A stretch of 64,000 nt of DNA. Source: Spongiactinospora sp. TRM90649. GTDB lineage: Bacteria > Actinomycetota > Actinomycetes > Streptosporangiales > Streptosporangiaceae. Location: positions 1 through 64,000 of the forward strand of contig NZ_JARLTC010000021.1 of NCBI RefSeq assembly GCF_029382225.1, in the 5' to 3' direction. Within the stretch, counting starts at the first letter, position 1. Each line of letters begins with the position of its first letter. Positions 51,708 through 55,720 of this stretch are shown in pieces. Under the pieces are notes generated by a model. The model was not told where the DNA came from. It was given only the letters and a program-made list of their open reading frames with translations, and ran no database searches. Position numbers and translations under genes: made by a program.

Positions 51708-52577
51708 TCATCCAAGATCAATGATCGCTTCCGTGTCATGCCGCCGTTTCCAGATAGTTTCGAGTGCCGTCCTCGCCGAGACGCGCACCTCGGGGGCGAT
51801 TTGGAGCGTCTCATCGGTCACCCGGCCCATCACAAAGTCCTGATCCACCGTGCTCGACGGAAGGGTGAGCCGCCCCGAGTCGTCGAGCACGATGAACCAG
51901 TCGCGACGCGAGTAATCGTGTACTTTCATTCCTCCCGGCAGGCGATCCGCGCGGCCGGACAGCGTATCCCTCAGTTCGGCCAGGGCCTGCGGCGTGTCCC
52001 GAAGCCCGAACCTGGAGTCGACGTGTGCACGCCGGTTATAAATATAGGTCTGGAACAACACGTCGTTGAAGCCGTGCACGGCCACGTCGTCGAGAAAATC
52101 CCCGACATCGACCAGAGATTCCGCTGACAGCATGTAGTTGGCACCCACGATGACACCGTGGTCGGCGATGAGCCGCTTGGCCAGCGACAACTGCTGATCG
52201 TAGTTCCCACTCCCCATCAAGCGATCGTGGGAGGAACGCGATCCATAGAAAGAGAGTTTCACGTACTCGAACACCCCGATCCACTCGGGAATTCCGGTCA
52301 ACAGCCGATCACCGTTCGTCGTGACGAGCTGAATCATGCCCAGGACGCGCACATGACGCACCAGAGAGGCGATCAGCGGATACTCGAACGGCTCGCCACC
52401 GGAGTAGGAGATCTTTTCGACTCCCAGTTCCACCAGCCTATTCGCGATCATGAACGGATCGTGTTCGGGATGTTCGACGCGCGGGCCACTGGTGGACAGG
52501 CAGAATGGACATGCACGGTTGCAGTGGCGAGAAAGGCGCCAGCAGAGCATACAGTGAGTGCTGAAGTGGCGAGCCAT
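51708..52577 (-). CDS. Radical SAM enzyme of the four-gene nucleotide-type operon
   Basis: A 289-aa radical SAM protein. The cluster motif is CNRACPFC (C19, C23, C26), with an extra upstream pair C9 and C12 and no other cysteine in the protein, so no C-terminal auxiliary cluster. The SAM-binding GGEP motif appears as KISYSGGEPF, followed by LVTTNGDRLL and VKLSFYGS. A C-terminal segment (FIVLDDSGRLTLPSS, MGRVTDETLQ) recalls the end of MoaA/SPASM-like proteins without their cysteines. Substrate unknown; the deaminase and nucleotidyltransferase upstream hint at a nucleotide. It is the last gene of the operon, 16 bp after the previous stop. Confidence 0.85.
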   Translation of the reverse strand: MARHFSTHCMLCWRLSRHCNRACPFCLSTSGPRVEHPEHDPFMIANRLVELGVEKISYSGGEPFEYPLIASLVRHVRVLGMIQLVTTNGDRLLTGIPEWIGVFEYVKLSFYGSRSSHDRLMGSGNYDQQLSLAKRLIADHGVIVGANYMLSAESLVDVGDFLDDVAVHGFNDVLFQTYIYNRRAHVDSRFGLRDTPQALAELRDTLSGRADRLPGGMKVHDYSRRDWFIVLDDSGRLTLPSSTVDQDFVMGRVTDETLQIAPEVRVSARTALETIWKRRHDTEAIIDLG

Positions 52578-52593: not shown

Positions 52594-53478
52594 CTACGCG
52601 TTGAAAGAGAGCTTGGAGATCCAGGGGCTCAGCCAGAGATCAGAGGCACCACTTACCAGAACATCCCTTAGCATCACCCTTGATCCGGCCATTCGCTCAA
52701 GCCCGCAGAGTATCCACGAGACATGATGGAGGTGCACTATCCGCGCGGTCGGGGTACGTATACGTATCCAGCGCGGCATACCGAAGCTCTGTCCAGAACC
52801 AGGCTCGATGACACCTTCGCAATCGGTCAGAATTACCTTTCCGGACCGCACGTCCGGAATTCTGCTGTTTCCGCTGCCCGCCAGGAAGAAGTCGGCCACC
52901 GCCCCGTCGACCCGCAGCGCGCACCAGCCTTTCCGTAGTATCCTGAGAACATCTTTCCTGCTGGTCGAGCCGAGTGTGTTGACCTCGTACGACGCAGCGA
53001 CACTTGAGATCTCCGGCCATCTGGGAAAAGCGTCCGGCCGGGCGTTGCAGCTTCGCAGAAGTTCGGCGAGATCGCCCCGGCACTCGACGATGAAGTCCCA
53101 GTCGGAGCCGGCCGAATTCCGGCCGAGCAGACGCGACCCGTAAAGGTACGCATGAGCCCCCCGGGAGTGCATCTCGGACACCAACCCCCGTAGCGCGGCG
53201 GGCTGGTCTCTCGCATAAGAGCCTGATGCGTCCACTGCCCGGGACCTCCACGGGGCCACGAGAGCGACCTCCTCCGCCCTGGCCAGCGCACAATCCCGGT
53301 CCAGCAGCAGGTGTCTTCGCCCCGGCAGGGCCGCCGCAGTCGACGGCGTCAGCTTCGCCCATGCACAGCCGGCACGCCGGTAGACGGGCCGGAAGGCCAC
53401 GTCTCCGCGTTCCGTGTAGGCACGGAACGACCCCAGAACGCCTCCCGAGATGGCAACGTAATCATAGGGCTCATACAT
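52594..53478 (-). CDS. Pol-beta-type nucleotidyltransferase, atypical
   Basis: A 294-aa protein. Residues 1-105 match nothing I recognise. Then a nucleotidyltransferase motif appears: AYLYGSRLLGRNSAGSDWDF (G114-S115 and acidic pair D126/D128). A possible third carboxylate lies in VDGAVADFF (D191 or D196). The C-terminus (IRIRTPTARIVHLHHVSWIL) is unfamiliar. It is larger than MNT antitoxins and does not look like a canonical CD-NTase. ATG 53478 lies 8 nt after the deaminase stop; GTG 53505 is an alternative that overlaps it. Nucleotide transfer to a protein, RNA or small molecule is inferred. Confidence 0.7.
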   Translation of the reverse strand: MYEPYDYVAISGGVLGSFRAYTERGDVAFRPVYRRAGCAWAKLTPSTAAALPGRRHLLLDRDCALARAEEVALVAPWRSRAVDASGSYARDQPAALRGLVSEMHSRGAHAYLYGSRLLGRNSAGSDWDFIVECRGDLAELLRSCNARPDAFPRWPEISSVAASYEVNTLGSTSRKDVLRILRKGWCALRVDGAVADFFLAGSGNSRIPDVRSGKVILTDCEGVIEPGSGQSFGMPRWIRIRTPTARIVHLHHVSWILCGLERMAGSRVMLRDVLVSGASDLWLSPWISKLSFNA

Positions 53479-53486
53479 GGAAGCAC

Positions 53487-53960
53487 TCAGACTAGTTTGA
53501 GGCACTCATCACGCATGAATCTCTCGTGAAGTGTGAGAACAGGCGCGCCCCGGGCCACCACATAGGACGACTTGATGTTTATCCGCCGCCACGAGTGATC
53601 CGACCCGGACCTGCCGGCGAAGTCGAAGGCATCCTCCAGGCTCGCCCCGTAGACGATTCCCTCGACCTTGGCCCATATCGCGGCGGACGTGCACATCGGA
53701 CACGGCTCCAAGGTCGTGTACAGGAAGTAGCCGGGCAGGTATCTGCTGTTCACGGCCTTGCACGCGCGCCGAAGGGCGAGTATCTCGGCATGCGCGGTCG
53801 GATCCGGCTGCGAGTGCAATTCGGTGAACCCCGCCCCGATGACCGTCATTCGGCCGCCTATGACGATGGAACCGACCGGATAGTTTCCCGACGACTCCGC
53901 GCCTTCAGCGATCTTTATCGCCTCCCCCATCGCCTGCTCACTGGGATGCATGTCATCCAT
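53487..53960 (-). CDS. CMP/dCMP-type nucleoside or base deaminase
   Basis: A 157-aa zinc deaminase with TAHAEILALR (zinc His57, catalytic Glu59) and LEPCPMCTSAAIWA (C87 and C90), the complete active site of the cytidine/guanine/tRNA-adenosine deaminase superfamily. Length and the motif spacing resemble guanine deaminase or TadA-like nucleoside deaminases. Substrate not deducible. Its ATG lies inside the end of the membrane-protein gene (8-nt overlap), showing tight coupling in the operon. Confidence 0.85.
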   Translation of the reverse strand: MDDMHPSEQAMGEAIKIAEGAESSGNYPVGSIVIGGRMTVIGAGFTELHSQPDPTAHAEILALRRACKAVNSRYLPGYFLYTTLEPCPMCTSAAIWAKVEGIVYGASLEDAFDFAGRSGSDHSWRRINIKSSYVVARGAPVLTLHERFMRDECLKLV

Positions 53961-54774
53961 GCCCGGCCGCCCTCTTCTCCTCTTCCGTCTCCAGCACCTT
54001 GAGGCGGACTATGACGTCCGTCACGCCGACCGCCAGACCCTGAAACGTTCTGCGAACGGCCGCCTCCGCCAGCACCCTCTTGTTTCCAAACGCACACAGG
54101 ACGCCCGCCGGCGTCTCGTTCTCACGGTGCATGGGCAACGCCAGCACCCATGTGATCTGCGGGTCCACCTTATTTTTGATTCGCGCGTTGTACCGCTCCG
54201 GGTGCGTCACCGGAAGCTCTTCGTAAATTATCTCATCGCCCCTGTAGGAGTCACATATGACCAGCTCGTCAACGTCGGGGTACGCTATGTCAAGGGAATG
54301 GTTGAGCGGCAGGTCCTCACATTCATAGTAGACAAGACGATCTTTACGAAGCACCGTCCGACCGTCTACACCGTCCGCATAGAAGAGATGCACGTTGACG
54401 TTTCCGCGTCGCGGGCTCCTGCCTATCAACTGTAAGAGCGATAAGATTATCTGACGATTGCTCTCCTTCAGCCGCTTCAGGGATTCCAAGTGTGCCTTCC
54501 GTTCGGCGGCCGCGGCGGCACGCTGCGTCAATATATCGTTTATAAGGTCAAAAATGAGCAAGGCAACTCCTATGGGCAGTAGGAGATTCCACCAGCCGAG
54601 GCGACCCGGCACCGATGCCAGTCTTTGCCCGTCAGAGACGCTATTGGCTACCAAGTTGGCAAAAAATCCCAGCGTGGTGGGTACGGATAGCTTTATCAAG
54701 ACACGCAGGGCGACGATGTTCCGCGCGTTACGCCATCGCAGTGCGGCACCCGACGCTCTCGATGCAGTCATCAT
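53953..54774 (-). CDS. Two-TM, coiled-coil, GAF-like membrane protein (first gene of the operon)
   Basis: A 273-aa protein. Two membrane helices (residues ~22-45 and 61-79) are followed by a charged coiled coil (~84-118, AAAAERKAHLESLKRLKESNRQ) and a C-terminal domain (~122-262). That domain has GAF-like features: the WVLALPMHRENETPAGVLCAFG strand-turn-strand, then AVRRTFQGLAVGVTDVI as the closing helix. GAF domains often bind small ligands or nucleotides. The layout suggests a membrane sensor or effector for the product of the downstream enzymes, which is inference. ATG 54774 has GGAAAG upstream; TTG 54783 is in frame. GC content is clearly lower than in flanking genes. Confidence 0.72.
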   Translation of the reverse strand: MMTASRASGAALRWRNARNIVALRVLIKLSVPTTLGFFANLVANSVSDGQRLASVPGRLGWWNLLLPIGVALLIFDLINDILTQRAAAAAERKAHLESLKRLKESNRQIILSLLQLIGRSPRRGNVNVHLFYADGVDGRTVLRKDRLVYYECEDLPLNHSLDIAYPDVDELVICDSYRGDEIIYEELPVTHPERYNARIKNKVDPQITWVLALPMHRENETPAGVLCAFGNKRVLAEAAVRRTFQGLAVGVTDVIVRLKVLETEEEKRAAGHG

Positions 54775-55102
54775 CCGGCTCAACTTTCCGGCTACGCCAA
54801 TAGACGTGCGGGGTCACAGGAAGAGGATCAGCATTCATCTCGACTTGTATCATGTTTACGGGTGATCTTCAAATGATTGGCATGCGGTGATCGCACTGAC
54901 CATGTTCGGCGATCTCAAGTTGGTACGTTCCACAGCAATTGCAGACCTATGCACGATCCAGGGGCCCAATGGGCGAGTCAGGCGAAAATGGGCTGAGTGT
55001 GACAGCAGGTAAGGGAATGACCAGGCATCCCTCCCCGTACGAGATCTAAAGATCGGCCGGAACGGCTGAGCCACCTGAGTGCGCGGCTACAGGACTCCCG
55101 GT
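54775..55102. other. Promoter region of the four-gene operon
   Basis: About 330 bp without a convincing gene, AT-richer than the surroundings. It should hold the leftward promoter for the 2TM-GAF operon and the end of the leftward DUF6461-like gene. No clear dyad or terminator was found. Confidence 0.4.
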
Positions 55103-55720
55103 TCATCGCGGGGTCACGTCCGCCGGGGAGATGTCGGCTAAGGTGCAGATCTCGGTCGATATGACGAAGCGAGAGTGTTCCGTGTGCAGCCACCGGACGG
55201 TCATGTGGGTGTCGCTCAGCCGGGTGGCGAGGGCGAAGGCGGAGTTCAACCATTGATCGTCGGGAGTGGTCGGGAAGGGCAGGCCGGCGATATGCGGGGC
55301 GACCACGCCTTGGATGGCGGCGGGCCACTCGGTGACGGGGGATCTGGGTACTGCTGCGATGAAGCACCCTTGTGCCGCGTAGTTGAACTCGGTGTGCACC
55401 GGGCCGTTCCAGTAGAGGCCGAACGCCCGGCCGGCCGTGGAGAGCGCGGTCAGGACACCGGTGGAGCGTGCTTCGCCGCCGTTCGGTTCGATGGCCAGGG
55501 TCCAGCCGTCGAGTGAACCGACCAGGACGGTCTGCCAGGCTTCGTCGTAGTGCTCCATCTCGGCGTCCAGGAGTGTCATCGGCGTGGCGCTCTCCGGCTC
55601 CGCGCCGAAGCAATGAGCGACCTGTTCGACGTCGAGGCCGGAACACCAGGTGACGCAGGCCGAATCGGGCAGCCATCGGGTGACCGGGCGGCGGTGGTCG
55701 GCGATATAGAGATCTGACAT
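55103..55720 (-). CDS. DUF6461-like hypothetical protein
   Basis: A 205-aa soluble protein (MSDLYIADHRRPVTRWLPDS) with the conserved-looking VLVGSLDGWTLAIEPNGGEARS core. It resembles actinobacterial DUF6461 proteins, which occur in accessory regions and have no known function. GGGAGG lies 5 nt before the ATG. It is divergent from the TPR gene by 35 bp and upstream of, and parallel to, the four-gene operon. Confidence 0.65.
   Translation of the reverse strand: MSDLYIADHRRPVTRWLPDSACVTWCSGLDVEQVAHCFGAEPESATPMTLLDAEMEHYDEAWQTVLVGSLDGWTLAIEPNGGEARSTGVLTALSTAGRAFGLYWNGPVHTEFNYAAQGCFIAAVPRSPVTEWPAAIQGVVAPHIAGLPFPTTPDDQWLNSAFALATRLSDTHMTVRWLHTEHSRFVISTEICTLADISPADVTPR

Follow-up and report, generated by a model that had tools for sequence, protein, structure and literature searches.

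CBASS and Pycsar loci combine a nucleotidyltransferase-type enzyme or a cyclase with an effector, and neither system is known to include a deaminase or a radical SAM enzyme among its partners. Among radical SAM proteins, MoaA carries the cysteines of a second cluster. Prokaryotic viperins (pVip / SAND; NF038283) are reported to convert CTP or UTP into didehydro analogues (PMC9642334). A survey of prokaryotic conflict systems lists GAF among their nucleotide-binding domains, and it proposes that a radical SAM domain found in some of these systems modifies a peptide effector (PMC7159879).

The locus described here lies in a stretch of 64,000 nucleotides from Spongiactinospora sp. TRM90649, referred to as the window. 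The original prediction concerned a single gene in it and described the encoded protein correctly, but missed the linked unit of four genes to which that gene belongs. This gene, here called gene 4, is the last in the order 1-2-3-4, with all four genes on the same strand, and the informative part of the finding is this unit, beyond gene 4 itself. Each part comes from a known superfamily, and the combination of the four genes appears new; no description of it was found in the titles and abstract openings listed by literature searches. The features of the locus are:

51708..52577, minus strand: gene 4, compact radical SAM enzyme, 289 aa (PF04055 above cut-off)
52594..53478, minus strand: gene 3, polymerase-beta-type nucleotidyltransferase (start placed by homology at the ATG at 53478; the reading frame opens at the GTG at 53505)
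53487..53960, minus strand: gene 2, zinc deaminase of the TadA / guanine deaminase superfamily, 157 aa (PF00383 75.3 bits, cut-off 25)
53953..54783, minus strand: gene 1, membrane protein with hydrophobic segment(s) and a weak GAF-like C-terminal domain, 276 aa from a TTG start, N-terminus uncertain (homology, hydropathy, GAF_2 below cut-off)
54842..54852, minus strand: element TGRTACAAGTC, promoter-like by eye, its first base lying 69 bases upstream of the gene 1 TTG

The compact radical SAM protein

The reading frame of gene 4 was confirmed on the minus strand, with its only five cysteines (C9, C12, C19, C23 and C26) all within the first 26 residues. Given that three orthologues exist (73-76% identity to the window protein) and that differences among the four copies are dominated by third codon positions (substitution by position 0.193/0.133/0.390), the reading frame is more than a product of chance. 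The protein belongs to the radical SAM superfamily, as it contains the C19-x3-C23-x2-C26 motif and scores above the gathering threshold of Pfam Radical_SAM (PF04055, 38.3 bits, cut-off 29.5). In none of the four copies does a cysteine occur beyond residue 26, consistent with the predicted lack of an auxiliary cluster, and the PF04055 score and the cysteine pattern together support a compact radical SAM enzyme that lacks a second iron-sulphur cluster.

This part of the original prediction stood, but the extra CxxC that it had noted in the C9/C12 pair did not hold up as a feature. While C12, together with C19, C23 and C26, is conserved in all four copies of gene 4, C9 is replaced by arginine in each of the three orthologues. 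Across the 56 aligned radical SAM rows, a cysteine at -10 from the first cluster cysteine (the C9 position) occurs in the window row only, and a cysteine at -7 (the C12 position) occurs in eight, namely the four cassette copies, L064 from Paraburkholderia, and L006, L007 and L008. C9 is private to the window copy among the sequences compared, and C12 is a recurring residue that is found in other compact radical SAM proteins too. Since C9 is private to one of the four copies, a functional extra CxxC is unsupported, and the pair was rejected as a second metal site because C9 is not conserved. L006, L007 and L008, which also have the cysteine at -7, represent a further compact radical SAM family, present in 3 of 3 genomes of the genus; the C-terminal halves of L007 and L008 are, by eye, without cysteine.

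Gene 4 resembles prokaryotic viperins in its compact radical SAM format (about 250-280 aa), in a similar GGEP segment (KISYSGGEPF, residues 55-64) and in a possible nucleotide context. However, it scores far below the family cut-off (36.8 bits, cut-off 180) and lacks downstream blocks that viperins share. The best PDB matches of gene 4 are viperins (E 7.2e-7), over residues 12-74 only, and local alignments with viperins are limited to roughly the N-terminal half; the pVip models of PADLOC give 44.9 and 44.1 bits. The blocks LGRGNG, KxNTVV and RWK of four aligned plasmid viperins, which we take to bind the triphosphate in viperin, correspond to MGSGNY, VGANYM and FNDVLF in the window protein, and the R position is occupied by S, R, A and K in the four gene 4 copies. 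When the viperin model was run as a control on 198 genomes of the phylum Actinomycetota, 187 of them contained a match at E<=1e-8, as did all 14 named control genomes, with no match over the cut-off in either set; another radical SAM protein in the window's own genome reached 78.8 bits. Because the model matches in 187 of the 198 genomes, the viperin similarity of gene 4 is attributed to a background common to many radical SAM enzymes. Membership in NF038283 was thus rejected on the score and on the missing downstream blocks, and the viperin likeness is superficial, just as the original prediction had put it. The partners differ as well: five plasmid viperin matches were obtained and four neighbourhoods viewed, three of which place the viperin beside a deoxynucleoside kinase gene and the fourth not, whereas the partners of gene 4 include a deaminase and a nucleotidyltransferase.

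The best NCBIfam scores of gene 4 are 50.8 bits for NirJ, 46.2 for StsB and 36.8 for viperin, with cut-offs of 515, 625 and 180, respectively. MoaA scores 24.1 bits (cut-off 284.05), and gene 4 has no C-terminal cysteines. A further match, to cytosylglucuronate decarboxylase (PDB 7vob), has an E value of 1.5e-5 over residues 11-149. SPASM/twitch enzymes (NirJ, PqqE, MftC) and BlsE are alike in that they give the best profile scores, over the core, but gene 4 has neither their auxiliary-cluster cysteines nor a SPASM match. In particular, the SPASM-like tail that had been proposed was not recovered: no SPASM model matched at E<=10 when the last 120 residues of each copy were searched, with HMMER filters dropping most matches above about 0.1, and a single unrelated weak match was obtained in two of the four copies. 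With no cysteine after residue 26 in any copy and no SPASM match, gene 4 is not supported as a SPASM/twitch enzyme.

In a tree of 56 rows, which are the loci retrieved in this analysis, the four gene 4 copies group together (100/99) at the end of a long branch with no supported sister; the backbone did not resolve, and gene 4 did not group with viperins. Forcing gene 4 and the viperins into one clade lowers the log-likelihood by 12.45 units, which does not reject that clade (p-AU 0.136), and a clade of gene 4 with L064 gives a log-likelihood 1.5 above the free tree (p-AU 0.594), which is no proof of kinship, in a tree where many long branches meet and the MoaA row is without its last residues. 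Placement against the MoaA, viperin and SPASM families, which had been suggested as a check, therefore assigns gene 4 to no family of known function and leaves its clade isolated.

A rare cassette of four linked genes

The four genes are found in identical order in all four carriers, each a member of the Streptosporangiaceae, at different sites: the window genome, Thermocatellispora tengchongensis (L017, G030:C42), Nonomuraea candida (L018, G233:C12) and G156 (L025/L031). The catalytic motifs of the cassette enzymes are invariant in the four copies, and in each of the four genes most differences fall at third codon positions. Open stretches of at least 90 codons were compared between 24 kb of the window and 16, 19 and 20 kb around the other copies, with L032 ending about 870 bases downstream of the cassette, and at blastp E<=1e-8 the cassette was the only region common to the four; no further shared gene of at least 90 codons was found at the cassette edges, and about 500 bases on each side contain only short DNA matches between loci. 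The lipase adjoining the window cassette has its closest matches (65-66%) in G156, about 290 kb away, and in G233, on another contig, and since these relatives lie far off or on another contig, the surroundings of the cassette differ. In two of the four loci (window 55103-55720 and L018:2875-3483), a DUF6461 gene adjoins the cassette on its upstream side; the two genes are on opposite relative strands, have diverged and are not joined at blastp E<=1e-8. In G156 (L031:3462-8717), genes for a JmjC_2 protein and an MFS transporter, with arginase-like and oxygenase-like ORFs (by eye), converge on the cassette, a cluster that is not common to the other carriers.

In 297 family genomes, gene 1 (at E<=1e-5) and, in a separate search, gene 4 (at E<=1e-20) each matched the four carriers only, and gene 3 (E<=1e-3) gave three matches in 200 genomes of the order, all of them carriers. 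Class-wide, the window genome was the only match both for gene 1 (394 genomes) and for gene 4 (296 genomes, E<=1e-17), with no further carrier. Gene 3 matched in 2 of 296 genomes of the class, the second being a match over 65 positions (E 2.7e-4) at G490:C1:283025-283231 (L036), in another family of the class. A contig scan with exact peptide patterns of the window protein, which finds near relatives only, gave two near and five distant loci. Gene 4 matched 22 plasmid records, all below 60% identity, and among the matches listed the one with the widest cover (86%) is 28.7% identical. No relative was found in plasmids searched with genes 3 and 1, in viral contigs searched with genes 4, 3 and 1 and the Paraburkholderia enzyme, or in phages searched with gene 4. 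The search with gene 2 alone covered plasmids, and a deaminase with 33.6% identity over 95% of gene 2 is present in three Pseudomonas plasmids. The cassette is absent around two of these plasmid deaminases, whose neighbourhoods were inspected, as well as around a radical SAM gene of Paenibacillus (by annotation) and one of Streptomyces clavuligerus (ORFs by eye).

The window cassette is AT-rich, with per-gene GC of 0.575-0.629 and GC3 of 0.69-0.785, compared with GC3 of 0.90-0.95 in seven flanking genes and intermediate values (0.80-0.84) in the two genes directly upstream. Cassette/flank values in the other three loci are 0.647/0.712, 0.574/0.713 and 0.68/0.699, and the GC argument for transfer is weak in Nonomuraea candida. 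The listed contamination of the window genome is 7.5%; given that independent carriers exist, contamination is unlikely to be the source of the cassette. We regard the cassette as a rare unit that moves horizontally among a few actinobacteria of soil type, with four instances in one family.

In gene 2, the zinc and catalytic motif (H57-A-E59, C87-x2-C90) is invariant in the four copies. TadA (E 6.9e-21) and guanine deaminase (3.4e-19) are about equally close in the PDB, and gene 2 falls below the cut-off of the TadA model (NF008113; 78.7 bits, cut-off 150) with its zinc and catalytic motif intact. Because the plasmid relative sits among ABC transporter and isochorismatase-family genes in the two Pseudomonas plasmids inspected, a free base is a possible substrate of gene 2. 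Gene 3 scores 18.1 bits with PF01909, below the cut-off of 21, and contains the superfamily motif of the polymerase-beta type, GS-x(n)-DxD plus a third carboxylate, in the form of G123-S124, D135, D137 and D205, which are invariant in all four copies, the possible role of D205 being assigned by position. Its sole PDB match is the MNT antitoxin (E 1.7), and its N- and C-terminal regions (pieces from the window and L017) gave no Pfam family match.

The gene 1 product is 77-81% identical to its three orthologues. A segment at about residues 65-85 exceeds a hydropathy of 1.6 in all four copies, and a first segment (23-42) does so in two only. GAF_2 matches the C-terminal halves of three of the four copies below the cut-off (E 0.0009, 0.015 and 0.038; best 19.9 bits, cut-off 28.6), and the window copy gives no match. 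AlphaFold models of genes 1 and 3, both built from three-row alignments, have mean pLDDT values of 47.2 and 36.7, respectively, too poor to use. Upstream of gene 1, TGRTACAAGTC is present in three of the four loci, about 47-83 bases before the presumed start, and occurs once in the 64 kb window when both strands are counted. It is not among the promoter scan predictions for the area, and the promoter and terminator scan returned no more predictions than shuffled sequence.

A putative nucleotide product and the rival explanations

From the domain content of the cassette we tentatively propose that the three soluble enzymes produce or modify a nucleotide-like molecule that is read by the membrane protein, perhaps in phage defence, a reading that we hold to be quite possible and still short of probable. 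The deaminase, the nucleotidyltransferase and the radical SAM enzyme would act on a nucleotide or nucleoside-like substrate: the first would deaminate the base, the radical SAM enzyme would perform radical chemistry on base or sugar, and the nucleotidyltransferase would transfer a nucleotidyl group. The membrane protein would then bind the product via its GAF-like domain and respond at the membrane. That a nucleotide is involved is suggested by the fact that two of the three enzymes fall into nucleotide-handling superfamilies, together with the possible GAF domain of the membrane protein, and the rarity of the cassette and its differing sites would fit a defence or other conflict role. The pattern may be one of a nucleotide system used for signalling or against viruses, by analogy of layout with Pycsar and CBASS and not by homology. 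As in those systems, there is a nucleotidyltransferase-type enzyme and a membrane protein with a possible nucleotide-binding domain; in contrast to them, the cassette adds deaminase and radical SAM partners. PADLOC includes CD-NTase and cyclase models, and the cassette proteins match none of them, gene 3 matching only PDC-S09 there. With no recognised CD-NTase or cyclase, the cassette is not identified as CBASS or Pycsar.

A bolder version would have the three enzymes jointly build an altered nucleotide signal, which the membrane effector would sense through its GAF domain and so halt phage infection, making the cassette a new class of nucleotide-based immunity that is mobile among rare actinobacteria; as a whole, this is doubtful. 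Against a defence role, the cassette proteins match defence models only weakly or at background level: PDC-S09 for gene 3 (E 0.04, and 0.053 in L031), a dCTPase model for gene 2 (E 4.8e-4 over 48 residues), PprDinG for gene 1 (E 0.0065 over 27 residues), and pVip for gene 4, which is background. Against a role for GAF, the GAF call is below the cut-off and absent from the window copy. The tight linkage of a deaminase, a nucleotidyltransferase, a radical SAM enzyme and a membrane sensor-like protein makes the cassette a small, fully testable mobile unit, and if an altered nucleotide is made, radical chemistry would be added to the bacterial routes to immune signals and antiviral nucleotides outside the viperin family.

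The main alternative is that the same enzymes form a minimal biosynthetic pathway leading to a nucleoside-type specialised metabolite, in which the membrane protein would be a regulator or tolerance factor. Such a pathway would suit the actinobacterial hosts, the match of gene 4 to cytosylglucuronate decarboxylase, a free-base substrate as hinted by the transporter and isochorismatase-family genes around the plasmid relative of gene 2, and, in G156, the adjoining gene cluster that encodes a JmjC_2 protein and an MFS transporter. However, the 7vob match lies in the generic radical SAM core, and no glycosyltransferase, transporter or tailoring gene is common to the four loci (in L032, only about 870 bases lie downstream of the cassette before the contig end), and we consider the pathway unlikely, if a serious candidate. 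Distinctly less plausible is a module for RNA (e.g. tRNA) modification or repair, in which the deaminase and the radical SAM enzyme would edit and the nucleotidyltransferase would add nucleotides. Although TadA provides both the best NCBIfam match and the best PDB match of gene 2, its score is far below the cut-off, guanine deaminase matches nearly as well, and no RNA-binding domain was recognised in the cassette proteins.

The radical SAM enzyme might also modify a peptide or a cassette protein, as SPASM-type maturases do, which would accord with its best profile matches, NirJ and the sactipeptide maturase StsB (both far below their cut-offs), and with the survey proposal of a radical SAM domain acting on a peptide effector (PMC7159879). 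We judge this improbable, given that auxiliary-cluster cysteines and a SPASM match are missing and that a DNA comparison of the roughly 500 bases on either side of the cassette gave short matches only. That gene 4 is a divergent viperin (SAND) making a didehydro nucleotide is highly improbable: its top PDB matches, the two pVip scores and the p-AU value of the joint clade are compatible with it, but the viperin score itself, the sub-threshold matches of the same model in nearly all control genomes, the missing LGRGNG, KxNTVV and RWK blocks and the likelihood cost of the joint clade all argue against it.

Related radical SAM loci

The radical SAM protein L064, encoded on a Paraburkholderia plasmid, shares with gene 4 the cysteine at -7 and 29% identity over residues 10-258, including the tail, but it has further cysteines and its gene adjoins an exonuclease-model gene. 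By eye, no deaminase or nucleotidyltransferase was noticed among the ORFs listed near it. In the stretch L064:4319-5783 of this plasmid, from Paraburkholderia sp. PGU19, the radical SAM gene directly follows a match to the PADLOC exonuclease effector model PDLC00753 (101.5 bits), with a toprim-like ORF upstream and a transposase-like ORF downstream, both by eye. A PDLC00753 exonuclease gene (149.1 bits) also occurs in Nonomuraea candida, about 5.3 kb downstream of the cassette (L018:12163-12831). On a plasmid of Indioceanicola profundi (L065:174-6534), a group of three radical SAM genes and one for a PqqD-like chaperone is adjacent to TIR-domain and SIR2-family genes, a stretch that is possibly a peptide-modification unit in a defence-like neighbourhood.
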